Shown here: positions 47,406 through 62,144 of the stretch, one piece after another
Numbering within the stretch: position 1 is the stretch's first letter
Layout: each line of letters opens with the position of its first letter
Source: Deltaproteobacteria bacterium ADurb.Bin207
GTDB taxonomy: Bacteria > Myxococcota_A > Polyangia > Polyangiales > Polyangiaceae
Assembly: GCA_002070115.1 (NCBI GenBank)
Contig: MWCO01000009.1
Coordinates: 62,001-126,000, forward strand
Direction of reading: 5' to 3'
Length of the DNA: 64,000 nt
Program-made: the position numbers and the translations under genes
The notes under the pieces: generated by a model
Told to the model about the DNA's origin: nothing
Databases searched by the model: none
Seen by the model: the letters and a program-made list of their open reading frames with translations, nothing else

Positions 47406-48911
47406 TCACCGGGACGATTCCCCGATGCTATCCGTATCGGGATTAGCCCAGGGTAATTTGACGACGAATCGAGCGCCTCCATATTCGCCATCTTCCGCGT
47501 GTATCGTCCCCCCCGCACTTTCTATCAACCCTCTGCATACGGCCAGACCGAGTCCTGTACCCGCTCCTACTTCCTTGGTGGTTACGAACGGCTCGAACAA
47601 CGCATCCCGGATCTCATCCGAAATGCCAGGGCCATCATCCTCCACCTCGAGACAAGCGCCTGCCAATTCCTTTTTCAATCGAACCCAGACGCGCCCTTTG
47701 CCCGCCACCGCATCGGCCGCATTGAGCAACAAGTTGATAAGCACTTGCGTGAGGTGTCCTCGCGCCAGAGAAACGAGTTCCGTGGCGTGTATTTCTCGCA
47801 CGAGTTCGATGTTTCGGTAGGCACGCTGCGGTTCGATGAGCGCACACGCGTCTTCTATCGCCTGATGGGGGAAACATGGTTCCTCACCCGTCCGATCGTG
47901 GGACGCCGTCGCCGGTCGTGCAAAGTCCAGCAGTTGCCTCAAGGTTTCATGAATTCTTTCCGTTTCCTTTCGCATGCGGAGCAGAAAATCTTTCTGTTCC
48001 TGTTCGGAAAGGTCCTCGGACAACATCAGGTCCAGAAGTCCGAGGATGGCTGCGATCGGGTTGCCTATTTCATGCGCCAGTCCCGCGGACAGCTTGCCCA
48101 CGGAAGCCAATCGCTCCGAACGAACGAGCGTACGTTGCGCGCTTCGAAGATCGTCGGTGGTTTTTTCCAGCTCATGAACCTTCTGCCGGAGGGTCTCTTC
48201 TTCCGAGCGGAGTTGCTGCGTCATCTCAGAAAAACTCGCGCCAAGGGCAGCGATTTCACGGGCGCCCGCGCGAGGAACCTCGAGTTTGCGTGCGCCCGCC
48301 GACACTCGACTCGCCGCCACCACCAACCGGTCGAGAGGACGTACGATCACATACGTCAAGGCCATGTACGTGAACACGAGAAACGCCAGCGCAAAAAAAG
48401 CGGTGTAGTAGCCAACCAATCGGACGAGGGGCTGTGCACGAACGGTCTCGTCATCCGTACGGACGATCGCCAGCACTGATCCATCGCTCGAGGGAACGAG
48501 CACCTCCAACGCGCGTCCTTCCGCCGTTTCGATGGTGCGCGTACGTTCGGTGTTCCCGGGCACGGTTCGTGGTAGCGACGCGGCGGCCGGAGTATCGCCA
48601 GCATGCTGAAGCTGATTGCCTTGCGCATCGTAAATGGCGATGGCCGTCACGCCACCGTACCCAATCTCGGCCTGCAAGAGCGGGCCGAGTTCATGGGCCA
48701 ATCGCGTGGTCCGTGCGTCCAATACATGCGCGGCAACGGCGCGGCCCATCGATCGTGCCGCCAAGTCCCAGGAAGACTGAAGCGTAGAGTGAGTAAGCCC
48801 AACCACGGCAAAATAAAGCGGAACGAATGCGAGCAACATCATGCCCGCCAGAGCAAGCAGAAGCTGCAACCGAATTCCCGGTCTCAAGGTCGAGCCTTTC
48901 GCAACTCGCAT
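47406..48911 (-). CDS. NtrB-type membrane sensor histidine kinase
   Basis: The 501-residue kinase has two transmembrane helices (about 15-38 and 164-190) enclosing a periplasmic sensor domain of about 125 residues. A HAMP segment (190-235, IVRPLDRLVVAASRVSAG), a short coiled coil and the dimerisation/phosphoacceptor box ERLASVGKLSAGLAHEIGNP (His280) follow. The ATPase domain shows the N box (LINLLLNAADAV), G1 (EDDGPGIS) and G2 (GAGTGLGLAVC). The GLAHEIGNP H-box is of the NtrB/AtoS type. The nearest regulator gene is the H1-tailed response regulator 202 bp upstream on the same strand, the likely partner. The signal sensed is unknown. Confidence 0.92.
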   Translation of the reverse strand: MRVAKGSTLRPGIRLQLLLALAGMMLLAFVPLYFAVVGLTHSTLQSSWDLAARSMGRAVAAHVLDARTTRLAHELGPLLQAEIGYGGVTAIAIYDAQGNQLQHAGDTPAAASLPRTVPGNTERTRTIETAEGRALEVLVPSSDGSVLAIVRTDDETVRAQPLVRLVGYYTAFFALAFLVFTYMALTYVIVRPLDRLVVAASRVSAGARKLEVPRAGAREIAALGASFSEMTQQLRSEEETLRQKVHELEKTTDDLRSAQRTLVRSERLASVGKLSAGLAHEIGNPIAAILGLLDLMLSEDLSEQEQKDFLLRMRKETERIHETLRQLLDFARPATASHDRTGEEPCFPHQAIEDACALIEPQRAYRNIELVREIHATELVSLARGHLTQVLINLLLNAADAVAGKGRVWVRLKKELAGACLEVEDDGPGISDEIRDALFEPFVTTKEVGAGTGLGLAVCRGLIESAGGTIHAEDGEYGGARFVVKLPWANPDTDSIGESSR

Positions 48912-49113: not shown

Positions 49114-50427
49114 TCATCGACTGGATGATTTTTTGGTCGAGGCTTTCTTCGTCGATTTCTTGGGAGCGGTCTTCTTTGCCACAGTTTTTGATGCGGCCTT
49201 GGTTGTCGTCTTTGGGTTCGCCACCTTCTTGGCTGGTGCCTTCTTGGCTGGCGCTTTCTTGGCTGGCGCTTTCTTGGTCGTCGCTTTCTTGGTCGTCGCT
49301 TTCTTGGTCGTCGCTTTCTTGGCTGGCGCTTCTTTGGTCGTCGCCCTTTTGCATGCGGCTCTCTTCGACGATTTTTTTGTCGCGTCTTTCCCCGGAGCCA
49401 TATCGCTAGCTTTTTTAGTCGCTGGTTTACTTTCGGCTACTTTCTTCGTTTTGCCAATTTTCGCAGCCTTATTTGCGGATTTTTTCGGTATGGCGTTGTT
49501 GGGTTTTTCCTCGCGCGACGCCTTTTGCATCTCGGTTGCCGTCGATGGCTCCGATGAGGAAGGACGCGGTCCCGGTCGCTGTGTGATCGGTTCTTCTTCC
49601 TCATCTTCTTCCAACGTTTCGATGGCAGCAGGTGGATCCACCCCCCACGCCCCGTGGTTTGACGATGATGCCGGTGGTGGAGGACGTAGCGTGACCGCCA
49701 TGGAAAACTCGTCTTCCTCGTTGTCGTCGATGACATCTACGGAAAGCGGTTGGTGTGAAGCATAAAGCGTTTTATCGAAGTGCGTTTCCGCGGCCACCGG
49801 CTCACCATGGTCGAACTTCTGAGCAGATGCGTGATGCTGTCCGCCCCAACTGTGGGCCGACTCATTCATCGACGGATCGTACGCGCGTGTTTCCGATGCG
49901 CCATGCTCCTCGATTGGCGCCCGATCGGATTCCTCGCCATCTGTGTCGTCCTCGAAGTCATCCGAGTTGGAGTGGTCCTCTTGCTCCGAGGTGTGGGAAC
50001 CGAAAAGCGACGGTTGTTCTACGACGGGCGGTTCATGACCTCTTTCCGTCAGAACCTGAGAAATTTTGCGGTCGAGATCTCGAAACTCGAAAGGTTTGTC
50101 GATGTAGGCATCAGCGCCATAGAGCGGAGATGTAAGCTCGTTGAGACTTTGTCCGATGCCCGTGAGCATGATGACACCGGTATGATGCAAGCTAATGCTC
50201 TCACGAATGCGTCGGCAGACTTCCCAACCGCTCATGCCGGGCATCATGACATCGAGCACAACCAAGTCGGGAAGGCTGCTTTCCGCTTCTCTCCAAGCCG
50301 CTTCTCCATCGGACGCCTCGAGGACTGAATAGCCGAGGGTACGCACATGTCGAGCCACCAATGCCAGCATGCTGGGTTCATCATCGGCGACCAAGACAAC
50401 GGGAGTCGTCCGCGTGCTCTTGTTCAC
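49114..50427 (-). CDS. Response regulator with histone H1-like Lys/Ala-rich C-terminal tail
   Basis: The 437-residue protein starts at GTG 50427, with AAGGAG 8 nt upstream. The receiver domain (about 8-128) is complete: acidic pair D15-D16, phosphoacceptor D59 (LVVLDVMMPG), T89 and K111 (IDKPF). An acidic, Ser/His-rich linker (about 135-310) follows. The last 130 or so residues are a Lys/Ala/Thr tail with tandem KKATT and KKAPA pentads, like histone H1 and bacterial H1-like proteins that bind DNA without sequence preference. No standard output domain is present. A role in phosphorylation-controlled nucleoid binding is inferred. The kinase gene lies downstream. Confidence 0.88.
   Translation of the reverse strand: MNKSTRTTPVVLVADDEPSMLALVARHVRTLGYSVLEASDGEAAWREAESSLPDLVVLDVMMPGMSGWEVCRRIRESISLHHTGVIMLTGIGQSLNELTSPLYGADAYIDKPFEFRDLDRKISQVLTERGHEPPVVEQPSLFGSHTSEQEDHSNSDDFEDDTDGEESDRAPIEEHGASETRAYDPSMNESAHSWGGQHHASAQKFDHGEPVAAETHFDKTLYASHQPLSVDVIDDNEEDEFSMAVTLRPPPPASSSNHGAWGVDPPAAIETLEEDEEEEPITQRPGPRPSSSEPSTATEMQKASREEKPNNAIPKKSANKAAKIGKTKKVAESKPATKKASDMAPGKDATKKSSKRAACKRATTKEAPAKKATTKKATTKKATTKKAPAKKAPAKKAPAKKVANPKTTTKAASKTVAKKTAPKKSTKKASTKKSSSR
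49228..49332 (-). repeat. Seven tandem 15-bp units encoding KKAPA/KKATT
   Basis: In plus-strand order there are three units of the TTCTTGGCTGGCGCT type (the first slightly diverged), three of TTCTTGGTCGTCGCT, and one more of the first type. They encode the pentad repeats of the H1-like tail. The block arrangement indicates expansion by slippage or unequal exchange. Confidence 0.9.
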
Positions 50428-50872
50428 TTCGCCATCTCCTTGCTTGTCGACACCCACGGTAACCAATGCGGGCACTGCTCTCGCCTGGGCGTGCGTGTGC
50501 AAAACGTCATGGGGTGAATTGGAGTACGGCAACTCGGGTTAGGTCAAGCATGCGCTTCCGTGAGAGGCGAAATAACGTACGGATTTCGGAGCGCCCACCT
50601 CGAAACCTCAAAAATCCACCCAAATACGGATGAATTGGGCCATAACGCCCAAGAAACGGGAACAATCCAAGCGTTTGGGGCGTCATGATAAAACAGCCCA
50701 CGCCGGATCTGCCTCGGGATAAAGGACTTAACTATTGAAATATAAACGATATTTTATTTTTCGCCGTTTTTCTGAGACCCGGGCGAAGGCCGAAAACGTC
50801 GCTCCCCTTCTGCCCCAAGGCTCGAAGTTCTGGCGCGTCTGACCAATCAATGATGCTGTATTCGAACCCGAT
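50428..50872. other. Intergenic region, 445 bp, divergent promoters expected
   Basis: It lies between the response regulator (-) and the MoxR-operon (+). It contains the A+T-rich element at 50726-50762 and no recognised gene. If translation of the regulator began further upstream, up to 105 bp more could be coding. Confidence 0.5.
50726..50762 (+). promoter_or_regulatory. A+T-rich element ACTTAACTA.TTGAA..TATTTT
   Basis: The 9-mer ACTTAACTA (50726-50734) is followed at once by TTGAAA and, 10 nt later, by TATTTTA. It resembles the element at 8721. It lies about 110 bp before the first possible start of the MoxR operon and may contain its promoter. No confident -35/-10 pair was assigned. Confidence 0.3.
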
Positions 50873-52804
50873 GTGAGTTCTGTCGTGAATCAGAATCAGC
50901 CCCACGCCCTTCGCACGATTCGATCCAAAGCTCGCTGGACGGGGATGCGTTTGCGTTTCTCCGAGACTCTGCGATGGGTCACCCTCACTATCCCCGTTCC
51001 CTTGTTGGTCGCGATAGGCTGCCTGGCTCTGATCAAGATCCAACGACTGGATTGGATCGCTTCTCGTCCTTATCTCATCGCGATAGCGGCCTCTTGGGTG
51101 ATTAGCGTTGGGGCGGCCATGTATCCATGGTTGCGGCGTCGTCCGGCGTACGAAGGAGCGATTGCTCTGGACCGCTATCACGGGCTCCATGATCGCTTGA
51201 CGAATGCGCTGTACTTTTCTTCGTCGGCGTTTTCGGAACCCACGGCCTTGATGCAACTTGCCGTTCGAGACGGCTGTGCGCACGCGAAAGATCTTCGTCC
51301 GGCGAAGGCGGCGCCGATTGTCTGGCCGCCCGGAGTATGGCTTGCCGCGGCGCTAGCTGCCGTGGTCGTTGTGGTAGCGGCGCTCGAGGTTCGAACGACA
51401 CGGACCGTTGCTGAGGCGAAAACGATCGATGCGGTCGCGTTGAATGCCGACGATATCGATTATTTCCGCGAGACGCTCAAGGAGTTGGAAAACCGCAACC
51501 AAGAACCGGAAGTGCAACAAGCCATCGATAAATTCAATCAACTCGTCGAGGATATCGCGAACCAACGGCTTGAGAGAACGGAAGCATTTCGACGGATGGA
51601 GGCGCTGGACCGGGAGCTTCGAGCTGGGACGGCAGCGGATAAAAAAGCTTTGGAAGAAGGTCTCCAACGGATAGCTGAGGAACTACGTCGAAGCGATTTG
51701 ACCAAGCAAGCCGCTGAAGCTCTTGCCAATCAAAAGCTCGAGGAAGCGGAAAAACACCTGAAGGATCTCGCCAAACGCTTACGAGAAAACCCGAAATCCG
51801 TGTCCAAACCGCAGCTCGAACAACTTCGAAAAGCTCTCGAGGAAGCGTCGAAACGAAACGAGGAGCGTCTGCGGGATCTTCAAAACCGGCGTGACGAACT
51901 GCAACGCGAAATGGATCGTTTGTTGAAAAACAAAGACAAAAAGGACGCAGGAACGGACGAACAAGAGGAGCGTTTGCTGCGCAACAAGCGAAGGGAACTC
52001 GAGCAACTCAATCGACAGATCGAACAGCAAGAGCGGGCAAGTCGTCAGTTGAATCGATTGGATCGGGAACTTGCGCAAGCGGCAGCGGATCTGGCTCGTG
52101 ATTTGGGGTTGAGTGCGCAGGACTTGGAAAACGGCGCCGAAGACTTGAATCGAATGGCTCGCGAACAGATGACGGATCAAGAAAAAGAGGAGCTTCGTCG
52201 GCGTATCCAACAAATGCGAGAACTGTTGCGTCAGCAAGGGCAAGGGGGGCAGCCGCGGATGGTTCGAATGACACGGTTTTCACAGCGAGCACGGGGGGGA
52301 GGCCAGCGAGGGCAACGACAATCCGGACAGGGACAATCCGGCCAGGGGCAACAACCGGGTCAAGGGCAATCATCCGGTCAAGGGCAAGGCGAGGAAGTAT
52401 GGGTAATTGGCCCTGATGGACAGAAAGTTCTGATTATGAAATCCGCGGGGGGGGCCAGCCAATCCGGAAGTGGACAGTCCGGGGAACAACCTGGTGGTCA
52501 AGGTGAACAGCCCGGCGGCAAGTCATGGGGCACGGGGCACGATCCGAATCTTACGGGCAAAGCCACGAATCCCCAGATGGGTACGCAAGACGTAACCGCG
52601 GAAGGACTCGACACCGGTCAAGGACCCTCCCGTGCGGAGGTGATTCAGGGAGCTGCAGAACGAGGCTTTGTGGGGCGAGGGTACAAGAAAGTATTTGCGG
52701 AATACGAAACCGTAGCGGAAAAAGCGATCGAAAAAGAAAACGTTCCCCCCGGCTACCGTTTCTACGTCCAGCGGTACTTTCAGCTCATTCGACCACGTGA
52801 ATAG
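50873..52804 (+). CDS. DUF4175-like membrane protein with long coiled coil and Gly/Gln-rich segment
   Basis: The protein is up to 643 residues, with the start at GTG 50873 or ATG 50945. Two N-terminal transmembrane helices and a third near 145-170 (VWLAAALAAVVVVVAALEV) precede a coiled coil of about 250 residues rich in Glu/Gln/Arg/Leu. A low-complexity Gly/Gln/Ser region (about 450-550) follows, then a conserved C-terminal segment (AERGFVGRGYKKVFAEYETVAE and VPPGYRFYVQRYFQLIRP). The latter end is seen in proteins encoded beside MoxR/VWA genes. It heads an operon with MoxR 59 bp downstream. It probably anchors or organises the complex at the membrane. Confidence 0.75.
   Translation: MSSVVNQNQPHALRTIRSKARWTGMRLRFSETLRWVTLTIPVPLLVAIGCLALIKIQRLDWIASRPYLIAIAASWVISVGAAMYPWLRRRPAYEGAIALDRYHGLHDRLTNALYFSSSAFSEPTALMQLAVRDGCAHAKDLRPAKAAPIVWPPGVWLAAALAAVVVVVAALEVRTTRTVAEAKTIDAVALNADDIDYFRETLKELENRNQEPEVQQAIDKFNQLVEDIANQRLERTEAFRRMEALDRELRAGTAADKKALEEGLQRIAEELRRSDLTKQAAEALANQKLEEAEKHLKDLAKRLRENPKSVSKPQLEQLRKALEEASKRNEERLRDLQNRRDELQREMDRLLKNKDKKDAGTDEQEERLLRNKRRELEQLNRQIEQQERASRQLNRLDRELAQAAADLARDLGLSAQDLENGAEDLNRMAREQMTDQEKEELRRRIQQMRELLRQQGQGGQPRMVRMTRFSQRARGGGQRGQRQSGQGQSGQGQQPGQGQSSGQGQGEEVWVIGPDGQKVLIMKSAGGASQSGSGQSGEQPGGQGEQPGGKSWGTGHDPNLTGKATNPQMGTQDVTAEGLDTGQGPSRAEVIQGAAERGFVGRGYKKVFAEYETVAEKAIEKENVPPGYRFYVQRYFQLIRPRE
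52318..52390 (+). repeat. Degenerate tandem repeat coding for GQ-rich segment
   Basis: Imperfect units of the form CAATCCGGNCAGGGNCAA recur four to five times and code for SGQGQ-type repeats in the DUF4175-like protein. Confidence 0.6.
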
Positions 52805-52863
52805 GGTGTGGCACGACGAGTCCGGCTTGCCCATCTTGCTTTCGACTCAACCGAGGTAACCGT

Positions 52864-53874
52864 ATGACGGATTCGAACGATAGGGATCAAACAGAACAAC
52901 GTGTCGAGGATTTCCGAACCAAAATCGGCCGTCTTCGCGAAGAGGTTGGCAAAGTCATCGTGGGTCATCGTGATGTGATCGACGGGGTGATGACGTGCAT
53001 GCTCGCGGGGTCCCACGCGTTGTTGGAAGGAGTTCCGGGCCTGGGAAAAACGATTTTGGTGCGGACGCTTGCAGAATCGCTTTCGCTGCATTTTTCCCGT
53101 ATTCAATTCACGCCGGATCTGATGCCCGCGGACATCATTGGCACCACCGTCATCGATGAGTCCTCTTCCGGTGCCAAGGTCTTTGAGTTTCGACGGGGAC
53201 CTGTTTTCGCCAATATCGTGTTGGCCGACGAGATCAATCGGGCCACGCCCAAAACACAAAGCGCACTGCTCGAAGCCATGCAGGAGCAGCGTGTGACGGT
53301 GGCGAAAACGACCCACAAGCTCGATCTGCCGTTTTTCGTTCTTGCCACACAAAACCCGCTCGAGATGGAGGGAACGTACCCGTTGCCCGAAGCGCAGCTC
53401 GACCGGTTTTTTCTCAAGCTGCAGGTCTCCTTTCCAGACCGCGAACAACTGCATGCCATCGTGGACCGCACCACCGGCAGCCACATGCCCACCGTCGAAC
53501 CCGTGTTGGATGGACAGGCCATCTTGCAATTGCAACAGCTCGTGCGGGAGGTGCCTGTCGCACGGCATGTGCAGGACTACGCCATTCGATTGCTTCAAGC
53601 CTGTCACCCCGATGGCGATGAAGCGCCCGATATGGTACGTCGGTTCGTTCGCTTCGGACCATCGCCCCGTGGCGCGCAAGCCACCTTGCTGGCCGCAAAA
53701 ATACGCGCGCTGTTCGAAGGGCGTTTCGCCGCCTCCACCGACGACGTGAAGGCGGTTGCTTTGCCGGCGTTGCGGCATCGTGTCCTGCTCAACTTCGAAG
53801 GGGAAGCAGAAGGAGTGAGACCCGACCAGGTCCTCGAACACATCATCAAAAAACTTCCGGAAAGCAAGGCCTGA
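52864..53874 (+). CDS. MoxR-family AAA+ ATPase
   Basis: The 336-residue cytoplasmic ATPase has Walker A GVPGLGKT (about 57-64), the MoxR-specific FTPDLMPADIIGTT, Walker B VLADEINRATPKTQSALLEAMQE and sensor 1 VLATQNPLEMEGTYPLPEAQLDRF. MoxR proteins act as chaperones with partner VWA proteins. Here the partners are the DUF58 and VWA genes that follow at 16 bp and beyond. GAGG lies before the ATG. The motif set is complete, so the ATPase should be active. Confidence 0.95.
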   Translation: MTDSNDRDQTEQRVEDFRTKIGRLREEVGKVIVGHRDVIDGVMTCMLAGSHALLEGVPGLGKTILVRTLAESLSLHFSRIQFTPDLMPADIIGTTVIDESSSGAKVFEFRRGPVFANIVLADEINRATPKTQSALLEAMQEQRVTVAKTTHKLDLPFFVLATQNPLEMEGTYPLPEAQLDRFFLKLQVSFPDREQLHAIVDRTTGSHMPTVEPVLDGQAILQLQQLVREVPVARHVQDYAIRLLQACHPDGDEAPDMVRRFVRFGPSPRGAQATLLAAKIRALFEGRFAASTDDVKAVALPALRHRVLLNFEGEAEGVRPDQVLEHIIKKLPESKA

Positions 53875-53890
53875 GCCTGGAGACACCGCC

Positions 53891-54826
53891 GTGGGCTTTC
53901 GCGCTTTCATTCGTCGCGTCTCTCTTCCTCCACCGTCCATTCGCGGTGAGGACGACCTATTTGACGACGAGTTTCAACGAAAGATCGAATACCTTGCGAT
54001 CGTAAGTCGTCGTGTGTTCGCGGGACGGATGCGCGCCGAACGAAGAACGCGCAAGACTGGTTCTGGAATCGAGTTCGCGGATCATCGAGACTACGTGCCG
54101 GGGGATGATTTCCGGTATCTCGATTGGAACGTGTATCAACGTTTCGGAAGGCTATTGCTTCGTTTGTTCGAAGAAGAAGAGGACTTGAGTATTTATTTGA
54201 TCCTCGACGCTTCGAGTTCGATGGGGTTTGGACGAAATAAAAAAATTGTGTACGGCAAGCGACTGATTGCGGCATTGGCGTATATCGGTCTGGGCAATCT
54301 GGACCGCGTCGCTCTCGTCACCACCACGGATCGAGTGCTGGGAAGAATGCCTTCCACTCGTGGAAAACAACGTATTTTCAGGGTGTTTCAGTTCTTACGG
54401 GAGACGCATGCGGACGGAACGACGGATCTCGCGCAAGCGTTGAAGGTATTTGTCAGCCAGCACAAGCGTCGTGGGCTCGCGGTATTGGTCAGCGACTTGT
54501 ATGACCCCGCTGGATTCGAAAATGGGATCAACACGCTCAGGTTCAACAAGTTCGAACCCTTTGTATTGCATTTGGTGGATCCTTCGGATGCAAGTCCACC
54601 GTTGCGGGGTGACGTGCGGATTTATGACTGTGAAACAGGAGAAGAACGAGAAGTGACGGTAACACCGCGTGTGTTACAGAAGTACCGCCAAGCCTACGAT
54701 GATTACTTGAACGAGGTGCAAGCGTTCTGCACGAAAAAACAGGTGCCTTACGTACAGGCGAACATTCATGTGCCGTTCGAGGAAATGGTGCTGCGCTTTC
54801 TTCGTCGCGGGGGGATTGTGGGGTAA
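53891..54826 (+). CDS. DUF58 domain protein
   Basis: The 311-residue protein starts at GTG 53891 with TGGAG 9 nt upstream. The DUF58 hallmark GIEFADHRDYVPGDDFRYLDW lies at about 58-78 (the Asp/Arg core is D-RDY-PGDD-R-DW), followed by a VWA-like fold with LILDASSSMGF as the metal-ion site. No membrane segment is present, unlike many DUF58 proteins. It is encoded between MoxR and the BatA-like gene, with only 3 bp to the latter. Confidence 0.93.
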   Translation: MGFRAFIRRVSLPPPSIRGEDDLFDDEFQRKIEYLAIVSRRVFAGRMRAERRTRKTGSGIEFADHRDYVPGDDFRYLDWNVYQRFGRLLLRLFEEEEDLSIYLILDASSSMGFGRNKKIVYGKRLIAALAYIGLGNLDRVALVTTTDRVLGRMPSTRGKQRIFRVFQFLRETHADGTTDLAQALKVFVSQHKRRGLAVLVSDLYDPAGFENGINTLRFNKFEPFVLHLVDPSDASPPLRGDVRIYDCETGEEREVTVTPRVLQKYRQAYDDYLNEVQAFCTKKQVPYVQANIHVPFEEMVLRFLRRGGIVG

Positions 54827-54829
54827 GGC

Positions 54830-56719
54830 ATGGAGTTTCTTGGCCTTCCGCTCACTACGCTTTTGTCGATCGGCGCCGGCGCGGGTGCTTTGGTGGTGGT
54901 GGCCTATATTTTACGGCTGAAACGCCGCCCCGTACCGGTTCATTTCGTCAAACTATGGGAACGGATTCTGCGAGAAAAAGAGGCCACGAGCCTGTTTTCT
55001 CAGCTCAAGCGGATTCTGTCGCTGCTTCTTCAGCTTCTGCTACTCACCCTGCTGATTTTCGCGCTCGGCGACCCACGCAGCGCCGCTGCCATCATCGAAG
55101 GTCGGAACCTGGTGGTGCTCATCGATGCAAGCGCATCGATGCAAGCGACAGATGGCACGCCGACTCGCTTCGAATCCGCACGGCAACAAGCGCGCGATCT
55201 GGTTCGCGGCATGGGCGGATCCGACCGTGCCTTGATCGTTCAAATGGATGCCACGGTTACGCCGCTGTCGACCATGACCGACGAAATCCCTGTACTGGAA
55301 AGCGCCATCTCTTCTACCCGCGTTACGGAGTCCCGGGCGGACTTTCCACGCGCTCTTCGATTCGCTCTGGACTCTCTCGTGGGATTGTCAAACCCAGAAG
55401 TCGTCGTCATTTCCGACGGGCGACTGGGTGTATCTCAAGACGCCATCAGCCTTCCGCTCGGTGAGGTCAAGCTGTCTTATGTCAAAGTTGGGCAACGGGA
55501 TATCAATGCCGCGATTACCCAATTTTCAGTGCGACGTTACCCGCTCGATAAGTCCCGTTATGAGGTCATGATCGAGGTGTCGAATACCTCGAAAGAACCT
55601 TTGGAACTCGAGCTATCCCTCTATGGTGATGACACGCTCGTCGATCTGACCAAGTTCCGCGTGGGTCCAGGAGAAAATCTACCTCGATTCTATCCGAATT
55701 TGTCCGGTGCAAGCCGTTCGCTCGAAGCGCGTCTTACCCTTGCCAACGGCGAACGGGACACGTTGCCCGTGGATGATCATGCGTACGCGCTGTTGCCGGA
55801 GAGGCGTCGGGCACGGATACAGTGTGTCACCAAAGGAAATACGTATCTGGAAGCGGCCCTGTTGCTGGATGAGTATCTGGATGTGACGTTGGTGGATCCA
55901 GCCTCGTATCCCGTTTTGGGTCAGCAATATGACGTGACCATTTTCGATAATGTGACACCCGATGTTGCGCCTGGATCGGGGGCCCTGTTTTATGTCAATC
56001 CGGATGGGGATAGAAGCCCCGTGAAAGTGGGAAAGGGCTCGCTCGAAGGCGTGGGGTTCGATACGTGGGACAAGAAGAGTCCGTTGCTTCGATGGACGAC
56101 GATTCAAAATGTCAATATCGCTACCGCCCGCAAACTCGAACCCAAGCAGGAAGACAAGGTCATCGGAGCGTCTTTCGATGGACCGTTGCTCGTGATGGGA
56201 CGTCGCGCGGGAAAACCGTTCGTAGCGATGGGATTCGACGTCAGGGATAGCGATCTGCCCCTTCGCATTTCATGGCCTTTGTTGTTGCTCAACACCATCA
56301 ACGAATTCGTCAACGAGGATACTTCGTATATCTCGTCGTATCGAACCGGTACGCTTTGGCGTATTCCGGTGGCCGTAGATGTCAGCGAAGCCAATCTGGA
56401 AACGCCGTGGGGTGCGAAACAAACCATACCCGTCCTACAAGGACATGCGGTTTACCTCGGTCAATCCGCGGGCGTATATCGGATGACCGCGGGCCCGCCG
56501 GATGCTTCGGTGCAAGTGGCCTTCGCAGCGAACCTTTCGGATGTGCAAGAGTCCACCATCGCTCCTTTGGATAGTTTGGAAGTGGCAGGGAAGGTAGCGG
56601 GGCCCGTCGAAGGTTTTCGAGTCGGAGTACGAAGAGAATTCTGGATTTATTTGCTGCTTGGGGTGGTGGCTCTTACGACGATTGAGTGGATTACCTATCA
56701 CCGGAGGATCACGGTATGA
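54830..56719 (+). CDS. BatA/VWA-type membrane protein
   Basis: The 629-residue protein has an N-terminal BatA-type region with two transmembrane helices and the conserved RLKRRPVPVHFVKLWERILRE spacer (residues about 27-47). A von Willebrand A domain follows (about 92-250) with MIDAS motif DASAS. A long extracytoplasmic beta-rich part and a C-terminal transmembrane helix (FWIYLLLGVVALTTIEWI) complete it. It is likely a MoxR client or partner in the inner membrane. Its stop overlaps the next start by 4 bp. Confidence 0.9.
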   Translation: MEFLGLPLTTLLSIGAGAGALVVVAYILRLKRRPVPVHFVKLWERILREKEATSLFSQLKRILSLLLQLLLLTLLIFALGDPRSAAAIIEGRNLVVLIDASASMQATDGTPTRFESARQQARDLVRGMGGSDRALIVQMDATVTPLSTMTDEIPVLESAISSTRVTESRADFPRALRFALDSLVGLSNPEVVVISDGRLGVSQDAISLPLGEVKLSYVKVGQRDINAAITQFSVRRYPLDKSRYEVMIEVSNTSKEPLELELSLYGDDTLVDLTKFRVGPGENLPRFYPNLSGASRSLEARLTLANGERDTLPVDDHAYALLPERRRARIQCVTKGNTYLEAALLLDEYLDVTLVDPASYPVLGQQYDVTIFDNVTPDVAPGSGALFYVNPDGDRSPVKVGKGSLEGVGFDTWDKKSPLLRWTTIQNVNIATARKLEPKQEDKVIGASFDGPLLVMGRRAGKPFVAMGFDVRDSDLPLRISWPLLLLNTINEFVNEDTSYISSYRTGTLWRIPVAVDVSEANLETPWGAKQTIPVLQGHAVYLGQSAGVYRMTAGPPDASVQVAFAANLSDVQESTIAPLDSLEVAGKVAGPVEGFRVGVRREFWIYLLLGVVALTTIEWITYHRRITV

Positions 56720-59502
56720 GAGGTCGACTCAGGCGGATCCTGTGGGGATTGTTGATCGTGACGATCGGAGGGGGGCTGTTTTCCGCGTATCGCCAGGTTG
56801 TGTTGTTGGCTCCGGAACCCACGTTGCGTTGGATTCGGGAGGGAATCACGTACGAGCTTCTCGCGCCCCGCATGCTTGGGTTCGTGCTGTTGGCGCCGCT
56901 ATTTTTGTTCGCTTTGGGACGTAGTCTTGCCGATCTTCCCTGGCAACAACGTCTCCTGTCGGTTGTGCTTCGTCTCGCGTTCGTAGCGTTGCTCGCGGTG
57001 GGTCTGTCTCGTCCCGCGCGAACCGCCAGCAGCAACAAGATCTGTACGGTATACCTTGTCGACGTTTCGGATTCGGTGCCGGACGAGGCTCTCGAGGACG
57101 CGCAAAAAGTGGTTCAAGCGGGGATCGATGGCCGGCGAGGCGACGACATCGTTCGGGTGGTTACGTTTGCCCGTCGGCCGGTGGTTGTTTCGTACGAACC
57201 CGGAGAGGTGCCGGCGATCACGCGGCATGATCCCCCTGGTTCGCCTGCCCGTTTGGGGGCTGGCTCCGACCTTCAGTCGGCTCTTCAACATGCCTATGGA
57301 TTGTATCCCGCGGGGTATTTGAAACGTGCGGTCCTGTTGTCCGATGGCGTTCAAACCGATGGCAATTTGCTGGCGGAATCCAATCGCGCCAAAGAATTCG
57401 GGGTCAAGCTTTATACCATCGCCTATCGAAGACCGGTTCCTGGTGAAGTCGCCGTGCGTGAGTTGACGCTTCCCGATCGAGTCAAAGTCGGCGAACCCTT
57501 CGAAGTCCGCGCTTCGCTGTACGCCACGAGAAAAACAAAAGCCAAGGCGAAACTGTATCAGGGAGAAGCCCTCAACGGACTCGACGGCGTAAAAAATCTC
57601 GAACTCGAAGCCGGTCCCAACGATATCTCCTTCAAGTCGGTCGTGCGAATGGCGGGAAGCGTCACCTATGCGCTCAAACTCGAAGACATCGAGCATGACC
57701 GTTTCGAAGAAAACAATCGCTACGCAACTACCGTGGACGTGCCTGGTCGCCCCACGGTCTTGTACGTGGAAGGGGAACCGTCGCGCGCCAACTACCTGTC
57801 GAGCGCGTTGAGCGCACAGCAATTCGATGTGGATGTGCGTGGGCCGTCGGCCTTCCCCGGCTCCTTGAAAGAATTGGAGCGATACGATTTCGTGGTGCTG
57901 TCGGACACCCCGGCGGAAAAAGTCTCCCTTGCCTCGCAGGATCTCATCGAACAGTACGTAACGGTTCTTGGCGGTGGATTCTTGTTCGCTGGAGGAAGCG
58001 CGGGCTTCGGATTGGGTGGATGGAATCACACGATCATCGAACGCATTCTTCCCGTTCGCATGGACACCGAACACCGTCGAGAAACACCATCGCTCGCCAT
58101 GGCATTGGTCATCGATCGATCTGGCTCCATGATGGGGTTGCCCATGGAGATGGCCAAGGCGGCGGCAAAGGCAACAGTCGATATCCTTGCGAGCAACGAT
58201 CTGGTGTCGGTCATTGCCTTTGATACGCAGCCTTCGCGATATGTGAAAATGCAAGCGGCGCGCAATCGAACGCGTATAGCCAACGACATTGCCCGCATAC
58301 AAGCAGGAGGTGGGACGGAGATTTTCTCGGCATTGGATGCGGCTTTTCAAGACATGACCGTGACGCGAGCACGGAAAAAGCATGTGATTTTGTTGACCGA
58401 TGGTCAGGCTCCGACCACCGGTATCCGCGATCTGGTGCAAGCGATGATTGCCGAGTCCATCACGGTCACCACCGTGGGGCTTGGGGAAGAAGCGGACGAG
58501 CAATTGTTGCGAATGATCGCGGATGTAGGGGGAGGTCGATTCCACAAGGTGACGGATCCGAACGCGCTACCCCGCATCTTTACGCGGGAAACGGAGATGG
58601 TGGCTCGCCAGGCCGCCGTCGAAGAATGGTTTCCGGTCACGCAAGTCGCCCCCGCGGATTTTCTGCGCGGTCTGGATATCAGCACGGCGCCTTTGCTGCA
58701 CGGATACGTGGCAACACGCATGAAACCCGCGCCCGCACAACTCATCCTGCAAAGTGACAACGCCGAGCCGATCTTGGCGCGATGGCGTCTCGGCACCGGC
58801 TGGTCCCTTGCGTGGACCAGCGACGTCAAAAACCTTTGGGCCGTCGAATGGCTACGATGGCAAGGCTATGGTCAATTCTGGGGACAACTCGTGCGGGAAC
58901 ACATGAGAACCAAACATCGCCGCGAGCTAGACATGCAAGCTTCCGTCGTCGATGGCCAGGTTCACGCCGTGGTCGATGCGTTCAGCGCCGATGATCGATT
59001 CGAAAATGGGTTGGAATCGACGTTGACCCTCGTTGGACCGGAACCGGATGGACAAAAACGTTCGGTTGCCATGACCCAGACAGCGCCAGGGAGATACGAA
59101 GCCTGGGTGGAACTGTCCAAGTATGGCTCCTATTTGCTGCGAGCGGACCATTCCCGTTTGAACGATAAAGGAACGCCTACCCAAGTTGCCGTTTCCTACG
59201 GCCATATTTCCAATCCGTATCCGAGGGAATACGCAAGTTTCGAACCCGATCGATTGACCTTGGAGCGGGCGGCAAGCTCGACGGGAGGAGGAAGCGATCC
59301 GGCTCCCTCTTTGGTTTTCGATCCTGGAGACGAAAAAGTCGAGTTTCATGAAGACCTGTGGTCGCGTTTCGTTCTTTCCTCCGTGGCCGTGTTCTTGGTC
59401 GATCTATTCTTACGGCGAGTACGGGTTTTCGATCGGAAATTCTTGCCGAGACGAAAAGACAAGTCGCAACGTACTTCGTTGCTTCCCGGGTCGGTCCGAT
59501 GA
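56716..59502 (+). CDS. VWA / GATase1-like membrane protein
   Basis: The 928-residue protein starts at ATG 56716 with GGAGG 8 nt upstream (ATGA overlap). It has two to three N-terminal transmembrane helices (to about residue 97), a first VWA-like domain from 111 (LVDVSDS), a glutamine-amidotransferase-like fold at about 345-450 (VLGGGFLFAGGSAGFGLGGW), a second VWA domain from about 458 (MIDAS DRSGS and LLTDGQAPTT) and a C-terminal transmembrane helix. No catalytic Cys of amidotransferases is visible. This is the usual last gene of MoxR-DUF58-VWA operons. Confidence 0.9.
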   Translation: MRGRLRRILWGLLIVTIGGGLFSAYRQVVLLAPEPTLRWIREGITYELLAPRMLGFVLLAPLFLFALGRSLADLPWQQRLLSVVLRLAFVALLAVGLSRPARTASSNKICTVYLVDVSDSVPDEALEDAQKVVQAGIDGRRGDDIVRVVTFARRPVVVSYEPGEVPAITRHDPPGSPARLGAGSDLQSALQHAYGLYPAGYLKRAVLLSDGVQTDGNLLAESNRAKEFGVKLYTIAYRRPVPGEVAVRELTLPDRVKVGEPFEVRASLYATRKTKAKAKLYQGEALNGLDGVKNLELEAGPNDISFKSVVRMAGSVTYALKLEDIEHDRFEENNRYATTVDVPGRPTVLYVEGEPSRANYLSSALSAQQFDVDVRGPSAFPGSLKELERYDFVVLSDTPAEKVSLASQDLIEQYVTVLGGGFLFAGGSAGFGLGGWNHTIIERILPVRMDTEHRRETPSLAMALVIDRSGSMMGLPMEMAKAAAKATVDILASNDLVSVIAFDTQPSRYVKMQAARNRTRIANDIARIQAGGGTEIFSALDAAFQDMTVTRARKKHVILLTDGQAPTTGIRDLVQAMIAESITVTTVGLGEEADEQLLRMIADVGGGRFHKVTDPNALPRIFTRETEMVARQAAVEEWFPVTQVAPADFLRGLDISTAPLLHGYVATRMKPAPAQLILQSDNAEPILARWRLGTGWSLAWTSDVKNLWAVEWLRWQGYGQFWGQLVREHMRTKHRRELDMQASVVDGQVHAVVDAFSADDRFENGLESTLTLVGPEPDGQKRSVAMTQTAPGRYEAWVELSKYGSYLLRADHSRLNDKGTPTQVAVSYGHISNPYPREYASFEPDRLTLERAASSTGGGSDPAPSLVFDPGDEKVEFHEDLWSRFVLSSVAVFLVDLFLRRVRVFDRKFLPRRKDKSQRTSLLPGSVR

Positions 59503-59627: not shown

Positions 59628-62144
59628 TCAAAACGGGGTGCCGTCTCGTCGCTTGCCGGGAGAAAAAGGTGGTTCGCCGGGATGATGCTCGAACGCCGTG
59701 GCGCCGTCGGCATCGATCGCCCTGGTCATCGATGAACCCCGGGCCAAGGCCGCTCGATATTCCATGGAATCGACGCGCTCCGAGGAGGCGTTGGACAACG
59801 TGACCGCATCGCCGTCATCGTTGAGTTTGAGGCCCGATGAGGCAACGAATACGGCGCTGCCGCCCATGTCGGCGAATTGTTCGATATCACCGCCGCCAAA
59901 TACGACGAGTGCCTTGCCTCCGGGAAGGATCGTTCCTTGCGGGAAGGTGAAACGCACGCCGATTTTATCGGAGATGGTCCAACCGGAAATATCCGTGTCT
60001 CCCTGCCCCGTGTTGACGAGTTCGATGAACTCGTCAGACTTGAAATCAAAGATACCATCGCCGTTGGTATCACTGGGAGGATGCGCCATGACCTCGTTGA
60101 TGATGACGGCACCTGGGGGCGGCGGAAGGGGTGGAACCTCGAAAGGTTCTCCGATTCTCAAGGAAGGATCTCCCAGCCACGTATACATTCGCATATTGGC
60201 GGCCGCGCATCGATCATCTCCATATTGATTGAAGAGCTTGGCGTTGGCACGGTGCAACAGCGCGCCGATCTCACTCACCCCTTCATTGAGCAGCGCCTGG
60301 AACAGATAGCGATTGAAGTCGTGATTGACGATCGTATAGGACGGTTGGGTGGCGCCGAGTACAGCGACCGCTCCTCCCGAGGGGTGCAGCACCCAATGCT
60401 CGGCCATCGAAGTCTGCTGATTCTGATACGAGGAGTTCAAGCAGGCGATGCTGAATACGACCGGCAGCTTGTTTTCGTTGGTGAAGGGAGCCTCATCGAC
60501 GCGGAAGTCCTGGTGATTCCATTCATGCCAAGCCGTTTCGGAGCCGTGACCGCGATAATTGACGATGCTGACGCCCTGGTTGATTAGCTCGATGACTTGC
60601 TCATTGGTGGCTTGCTCCGCGCCATAGAGTTTCGAAAACTCCACCTTGCTCGTGCGATACTCCGCCGAACGAATGGACTCGAGGCATTCGGTATACTTTT
60701 TCGGATAGTCTTGTTCATGGGCTACGAGCAAAACGTGATTACGCCATGCTTCGGACGGCTGTTCCATCTGCCCATAATGGGCCAACGTTTTGTGGACGTG
60801 AATGGTCAGCTCTTCCGGGGTCTTGCCCATCATTCGGCCAATGGCAACCTCAGGCAATAAGTCGTCGCCCGCCAAACAACCGTACCAAGAATCACTCTGG
60901 TTGCCGTTCCAGTTGTACAAGGGAATTGCTTCCGGCTCGCCCACCAAAAGCACATACTCGATAGCATCTTGTTCATATCGCGCCTGAATAGCAGTCTTGA
61001 TGCGCTCCGCAAGCGTTCCCTCGCCTTCCGCCACGCTGCTCGTCAACAGCACGTCCGTCTTCACCCCATCAATTTCTTTCTGGTCAATGAGCGGCTGAAT
61101 GGCGCCAAGCAAAGGATCATCTACGACAAACAGGTATCGTACGCGCTCATCCGTGGGAGCAGGCGGAGGCGTCTGCCCATCATCCGTCGCTTCGTAATAG
61201 TTGACGAGCGTTTCGTCATACGCTGCGGCAAATGACTCGCGACCATAATCGACGGTATCGATTGGCTCCGGATGTTGGTCCGCGAACCGAACGGTGATAC
61301 GAAAGCGGGTCGCGACTTCGAGTTCGCGATGCACGGGGTTGTATTGAAGCGGAAAGGTGTCCACGCGCACGACACGGAAGTTGCGCCACGTGGCGATTTC
61401 TCCCACCACGTGCTGGTAGCCAGGATAAGGGGCATCGAGCGCGTAAGAAGCAGCATCGAAAGCAAACTCCGGCGGCGGAGCATCTTCCAAAACCACCTGC
61501 TGCAACGGCGCCAAATGAAGATCCTGCAAGAAGGCAGTCTCCTTTATCTCGTAACTTTCAACCCACGCGGTATCCGTTCCTCCGGGCACGCCTATCATGA
61601 GGCCAATCGATGGGATGGCCGGCTTGCCAATGTCCGGTGTGCGTCCCGATGCATCCAGGGTCAATTCATGAAAAGCTTGTCCCTGAAACAATGTGCTCGT
61701 GTATCCCAGATCGTGGATCGATACGTCGAGGATGATCTGCCCGGGCTCAAAAGACTCGACCTGAACGCTGTAACCAGTCGCATTTCGATCGATTTGTTCA
61801 CACCACGGAAAATACGGAGGGCATTGCCCATCCGCTTTCCCATCGAGAACAAGACCCGCTTCTTTGAGCAAGTCCTCACAACTCGCCTGCATCAAATGAT
61901 CGACAGCCCTCGCATTCATGCTTGCACAGGGATCCGTCGAGGCACCGCGCAACGAACCAGACCCGGCGTTGCGAAGCGATGTGCAGGTTTTCGAAGTGCT
62001 GTCGACACAATAATTGTCGATGCACTCCTGAAGACGAGCCAATCCATCCTGACACGTTGCGGAAGACGGCGTGTGCGAAGCCTCACTACCGCAACCCAAG
62101 CCCAACAATAACGTTGCCCCACAGGCTAGAAGGTAGGTGCGCAT
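59628..62144 (-). CDS. Lipoprotein gingipain-like (C25) cysteine peptidase with lamin-tail domain
   Basis: The 838-residue protein has a lipobox LGLGC (Cys18) and a short Cys-rich region to about 115. A pro/beta region to about 330 has the VESFEPGQIILDVSIHDLG look of gingipain propeptides. The C25 catalytic domain covers about 335-680, with His533 (VNYRGHGSETAWH) and Cys568 (FSIACLNSSY) in the expected order. A lamin-tail domain lies at about 690-800 (VIINEVMAHPP, DEFIELVNTGQGDTDISGWT). It is likely a surface-attached peptidase. Substrate specificity (Arg or Lys) cannot be judged. It is convergent with the VWA operon. Confidence 0.87.
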   Translation of the reverse strand: MRTYLLACGATLLLGLGCGSEASHTPSSATCQDGLARLQECIDNYCVDSTSKTCTSLRNAGSGSLRGASTDPCASMNARAVDHLMQASCEDLLKEAGLVLDGKADGQCPPYFPWCEQIDRNATGYSVQVESFEPGQIILDVSIHDLGYTSTLFQGQAFHELTLDASGRTPDIGKPAIPSIGLMIGVPGGTDTAWVESYEIKETAFLQDLHLAPLQQVVLEDAPPPEFAFDAASYALDAPYPGYQHVVGEIATWRNFRVVRVDTFPLQYNPVHRELEVATRFRITVRFADQHPEPIDTVDYGRESFAAAYDETLVNYYEATDDGQTPPPAPTDERVRYLFVVDDPLLGAIQPLIDQKEIDGVKTDVLLTSSVAEGEGTLAERIKTAIQARYEQDAIEYVLLVGEPEAIPLYNWNGNQSDSWYGCLAGDDLLPEVAIGRMMGKTPEELTIHVHKTLAHYGQMEQPSEAWRNHVLLVAHEQDYPKKYTECLESIRSAEYRTSKVEFSKLYGAEQATNEQVIELINQGVSIVNYRGHGSETAWHEWNHQDFRVDEAPFTNENKLPVVFSIACLNSSYQNQQTSMAEHWVLHPSGGAVAVLGATQPSYTIVNHDFNRYLFQALLNEGVSEIGALLHRANAKLFNQYGDDRCAAANMRMYTWLGDPSLRIGEPFEVPPLPPPPGAVIINEVMAHPPSDTNGDGIFDFKSDEFIELVNTGQGDTDISGWTISDKIGVRFTFPQGTILPGGKALVVFGGGDIEQFADMGGSAVFVASSGLKLNDDGDAVTLSNASSERVDSMEYRAALARGSSMTRAIDADGATAFEHHPGEPPFSPGKRRDGTPF

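Follow-up and report, generated by a model that had tools for sequence, protein, structure and literature searches.

The window analyzed here, a 64,000-nucleotide stretch of the Deltaproteobacteria bacterium ADurb.Bin207 genome, contains a reverse-strand gene whose product joins a response regulator receiver domain to a long, strongly basic C-terminal tail (Table 1). A Pfam search of the 437-residue protein revealed a Response_reg match at residues 11-122 (E = 4e-23) and only one other match, to the histone H1-like HC2 family (PF07382; residues 313-435, 19.3 bits). No folded output domain beyond the receiver was found in this search or in the AlphaFold2 model. The model, built from 38 orthologues, contained a confident receiver (most blocks with pLDDT 95-98), and beyond residue 128 it showed no secondary structure (pLDDT mostly <55). 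An acidic linker of 178 residues separates the receiver from the tail, which comprises 130 residues including 42 Lys, 29 Ala and 18 Thr. The tail scored below the curated HC2 cut-off of 40 both in the protein search and in a genome scan (36.3 bits), and its resemblance to HC2 is compositional; the tandem repeat within it is a local repeat expansion. This architecture agrees with that described in an earlier note on this DNA, which had reported a complete receiver, an acidic linker, about 130 residues of Lys/Ala/Thr repeats and no ordinary DNA-binding or enzymatic output domain; its coordinates were correct and D15/D16, D59, T89 and K111 all lie where it had placed them.

Table 1. Features of the receiver-tail gene and its neighbourhood in the window
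Feature	Position	Strand	Remarks
HAMP-HisKA-HATPase histidine kinase	47406..48911	(-)	directly downstream of the receiver-tail gene; Pfam
Receiver + basic-tail gene	49114..50427	(-)	GTG start at 50427, 437 codons, TGA stop
H1-like Lys/Ala/Thr tail, residues 308-437	49117..49506	(-)	net charge +41, disordered
15-bp tandem repeat, about 7 copies, encoding K-K-A-x-x units	49226..49344	(-)	inside the tail
Acidic disordered linker, residues 130-307	49507..50040	(-)	net charge -34; not a family-wide feature
Receiver domain, residues 9-128 (D15/D16, D59, T89, K111)	50044..50403	(-)	Pfam PF00072, orthologue conservation, AlphaFold2
Signature LTGIGQSLNELTSPLYGADAYIDKPF, residues 88-113, receiver beta4-alpha4-beta5	50089..50166	(-)	also in tail-less orthologues (per-site conservation)
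Shine-Dalgarno-like AAGGAG	50436..50441	(-)	eight bases before GTG; read directly from the sequence
Divergent operon	50873..59502	(+)	643-aa protein, MoxR ATPase, DUF58, BatA-type VWA protein, second VWA protein

The acidic pair, phospho-acceptor Asp, Thr/Ser, Lys and modelled beta-alpha fold place the N-terminal part in the receiver family. With no folded output the protein falls among the single-domain response regulators, although its long tail is atypical of that class; the tail itself, Lys/Ala-rich, disordered and of high positive charge, is of the K/A/P type.

The distribution of the regulator was determined by genome searches with the receiver alone, a query with no bias toward tailed proteins. 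These searches revealed a single strong orthologue in 33 of the 39 nearest relatives, in 147 of the 184 genomes searched within the order, and in 62 of 141 genomes sampled across the phylum; one genome gave two matches. About 80 further loci came from a separate search that included one tail peptide among its patterns, and the distribution counts were not built on them. Several named loci and genome handles refer to the same genomes, so that locus counts do not equal genome counts. Within the window's own family, each of the 42 orthologues read has a basic tail; 41 of these tails were Lys/Ala-rich and one was Arg-rich and apparently frameshifted (G023, L185). Its presence in all 42 takes the observation beyond chance. 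Among 37 orthologues read from the order's other families and from elsewhere in the phylum, none has a basic tail of this kind, and most end at about residue 130. These relatives are single-domain receivers of about 130 residues, so there was no output domain to be replaced, and the earlier description of the tail as a replacement is not supported.

A tree built from the receiver alone placed the tailed proteins in one clade (support 99/97), with rows from families f8 and f6 as its sister group. The alignment comprised only 115 columns, and the inner forks of the tree are therefore weak. Tail state changed twice on this tree, and the second change was due to L071, the sole row scored as tail-less inside the tailed clade. 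The L071 sequence runs off its contig where the basic segment begins; with that change explained as a contig-end cut, the tree fits a single gain of the tail followed by retention across the family. The tailed clade contains named Sorangium, Minicystis, Byssovorax and Labilithrix loci, which identifies the family as Polyangiaceae-like; some metagenome-bin names disagree with the clade, for example one 'Nannocystis' bin that lies inside it. Two of the orthologues read from family f8 extend about 25 residues further, and this extension is rich in basic residues. Such ends, seen at loci L107, L111 and L160, are possibly intermediate between the tail-less and tailed forms. In Sorangium So ceGT47 (L052) the basic segment lies inside the protein, with a long region of acidic repeats after it.

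Receivers normally pass their signal through the alpha4-beta5 side. Per-site conservation, computed over 72 tailed and 51 tail-less orthologues, revealed that D16, D59 and K111 were invariant and that T89 varied once. N96 and T99 likewise never varied, and S100, P101 and L102 were almost invariant. The two groups were essentially alike in the stretches LDVMMPGMSGWEVC and LTGIGE.LNE.TSPLYGAD..IDKPF, and the conserved signature within the second stretch (TGIGE..NE.TSPLYGAD..DKPF) probably represents the signalling face of the receiver. Equal conservation of this face with and without a tail is our main reason for regarding the tail as an addition to an existing single-domain regulator, which probably kept an older protein partner.

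The tails of the orthologues align poorly yet keep their composition. The region after the receiver had a median length of 139 residues (range 56 to about 495), and the last 80 residues of the tailed orthologues carried a median net charge of +0.35 per residue. The K/(K+R) ratio was 0.84 in the tails compared with 0.36 in the receiver, at a median G+C content of 67%. Lys has thus been kept over Arg against the mutational pull of G+C-rich genomes, which argues for selection on the tail. Of 65 tailed orthologues, only 13 had a clearly acidic linker (net -10 or more), which makes it a subclade feature. The shielding of the basic tail by an acidic linker, which the earlier note had put forward, thus cannot be how these proteins work in general. 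The correlation between the acidity of the linker and the charge of the tail was weak (rho 0.36, with no correction for ancestry). Short linker motifs are conserved within clades, namely DEFSMAVTLRPPP in the window's own clade (49507-50040 in the window; L009 and L010) and REGVVRPxINGTxGAAKP in the Labilithrix-type clade (L014-L034); they are possible docking peptides.

Lys/Ala tails recur in this lineage. An HC2 profile scan of 13 genomes detected them on MetK, Obg and other proteins, with long Lys/Ala-rich C-terminal examples on S-adenosylmethionine synthetase (MetK; L212) and the Obg GTPase (L242, L258). In the same relatives a tail of at least 40 Lys-rich residues was present on MetK in 4 of 23 members of the window's family and on Obg in 4 of 21; the tails are thus sporadic on these two proteins, whereas they are universal among the regulator orthologues read from that family. 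The tailed MetK and Obg proteins rule out the idea that H1-like tails are exclusive to chromosomal proteins, and a tail of this kind need not mean a chromosomal role. A sequence search for relatives of this regulator's tail yielded next to nothing, as is to be expected of a low-complexity sequence; within its own genome the closest match outside the gene was the C-terminal tail of a DNA topoisomerase I (identity assigned from sequence). HC2 matches can also be false, since a ferredoxin-like protein whose long tail is made of KPKDD/KGDEP repeats (L119, 1490-2260, reverse strand) scored above the cut-off though nearly neutral. A candidate second H1-receiver fusion in the genome (C20) proved to be a ferredoxin with KPKDD repeats beside a separate NtrC-type regulator. 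A protein with a KSTASKSTAGK repeat tail (L123, 1480-2607, reverse strand) adjoins an apparent SNF2-type helicase fragment, whose SWIM-type zinc motif was read by eye.

Tails of this composition are known DNA binders in other bacteria. In Mycobacterium, a K/A/P-rich C-terminal tail is responsible for DNA binding by HbhA and HupB (PMC10665949), and the disordered C-terminal Lys/Pro/Ala repeats of Pseudomonas AlgP and PhaF resemble an H1 tail and bind DNA (PMC9239181). HbhA and HupB differ from the protein in the window in having a coiled-coil or HU body and no receiver; AlgP and PhaF have an N-terminal helical domain in place of the receiver and are tied to polyphosphate or PHA granules. A parallel in layout is CarD of Myxococcus xanthus, a member of the same phylum in which a folded protein-interaction domain is followed by an acidic stretch and a disordered, basic, DNA-binding C-terminal region (PMC4374960, PMC9304148). 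CarD orthologues of Anaeromyxobacter and Vulgatibacter carry an H1-like C-terminal region, and the tail-less relative CdnL coexists with CarD (PMC4374960, PMC9304148). The differences are that the N-terminal module of CarD binds RNA polymerase and CarG, that M. xanthus CarD has AT-hooks, and that CarD has been reported only from Cystobacterineae, which is not the suborder of the window's family (PMC9304148). Pfam identified Response_reg alone at the N-terminus of the window's protein and no CarD_CdnL_TRCF domain. Among signalling proteins the nearest likeness is to CheY/DivK-type regulators, which consist of a receiver alone and deliver their output through contacts with other proteins. This is precisely the form of the tail-less orthologues; classical members have no polycationic tail.

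The DNA binding of the HbhA, HupB and AlgP tails, together with the parallel layout of CarD, leads us to favour a tethering role, which we hold at about even strength: the tail would fix a CheY/DivK-like phospho-switch to the nucleoid, with output through a partner protein. According to this model, a conserved single-domain regulator of the CheY/DivK type would have gained a disordered, H1-like polycationic tail in the Polyangiaceae-type family. The receiver would be phosphorylated at D59 and would signal as its tail-less relatives are expected to, by binding a partner through the alpha4-beta5-alpha5 face. The tail would bind DNA with little sequence preference and hold the switch on the nucleoid, where the partner would then be captured, released or activated. 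An acidic linker, where present, may compete with DNA for binding to the tail and thereby adjust its affinity, and would be dispensable to the design. More tentatively, and with rather less confidence, the arrangement may represent a family-wide phospho-switch built into an H1-like tail, through which a phosphorelay would change how the protein binds the nucleoid, or would recruit a partner to chromatin across the genome, with no sequence-specific DNA-binding domain involved.

An explanation that we consider unlikely is that the tail is itself the output, with phosphorylation of D59 toggling broad nucleoid binding, probably through receiver dimerisation. It would account for the lack of any other domain by Pfam or AlphaFold2, for a composition matching that of known H1-like DNA binders and for retention of the tail across the family. 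However, orthologues with no tail at all exist in many other families, and the receiver face is conserved to the same degree with and without a tail, which a change to a purely tail-based output would not predict. A still less probable explanation is that the tail binds another polyanion, such as RNA, ribosomes or polyphosphate granules, and so localises the receiver to that target instead of to DNA. AlgP, which has a KPAA tail, associates with granules of polyphosphate, whose even spacing depends on it (PMC9239181), and in the window's family a tail of this kind is sometimes present on Obg, a GTPase associated with the ribosome; against this, no granule-related gene was seen among the annotated neighbours, and AlgP-type tails bind DNA as well (PMC9239181). 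Finally, it is improbable that the tail is a tolerated low-complexity expansion of little function in a G+C-rich lineage that readily adds C-terminal Lys/Ala repeats, as its 15-bp repeats, its variable length and the sporadic tails of MetK and Obg might suggest, because every family orthologue read has an open-frame, positive tail (one of them altered), in contrast to the few tailed MetK and Obg proteins, and the tail retains Lys in preference to Arg although base composition pulls the other way.

The earlier note knew of no characterised system of this design, and we likewise found no description of a receiver with an H1-like tail in the literature searched; as this was mostly open-access, the absence is only a weak sign of novelty. 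Should the tail act as the tethering model proposes, it would join two-component signalling to bulk, sequence-independent chromosome binding, a signal-to-nucleoid route that has no description in that literature. The related tailed and tail-less orthologues provide a natural before-and-after pair for asking what a signalling protein gains from an H1-like tail, and they also bear on how such tails arise in bacteria.

The histidine kinase directly downstream is a candidate partner of the regulator. It adjoins the regulator gene only in the window's three-genus clade (the window, L009 and L010); elsewhere the same kinase is a separate single-copy gene (33 of 39 relatives), and it is also present in genomes in which no regulator orthologue was found. 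We therefore rejected it as a conserved cognate partner. In some genomes the HAMP histidine kinase lies next to a polysaccharide deacetylase, and most genomes inspected had no regulator nearby. On the other side of the gene, the 643-residue protein of the divergent operon had no Pfam match. Many tailed orthologues adjoin a MoxR - DUF58 - BatA/VWA operon, and tail-less orthologues often lie within an operon of the order BatA/BatB - BatD - TPR protein - regulator - PPIase - SurA-like; at the one tail-less locus with its upstream region extended (L189), MoxR and DUF58 precede the Bat operon. With only 40% identity between the MoxR proteins of one arrangement and those of the other, the operons may be paralogous, and the link between the regulator and MoxR/Bat operons is suggestive only. 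Gene fission, in which a separate H1-like gene would lie beside tail-less orthologues, was also rejected; the protein with a Lys-rich N-terminus at L069 is a glutamine cyclotransferase homologue. Beyond the divergent operon, the window encodes a gingipain-type C25 peptidase with a propeptide and a lamin-tail domain (59628-62144, reverse strand).
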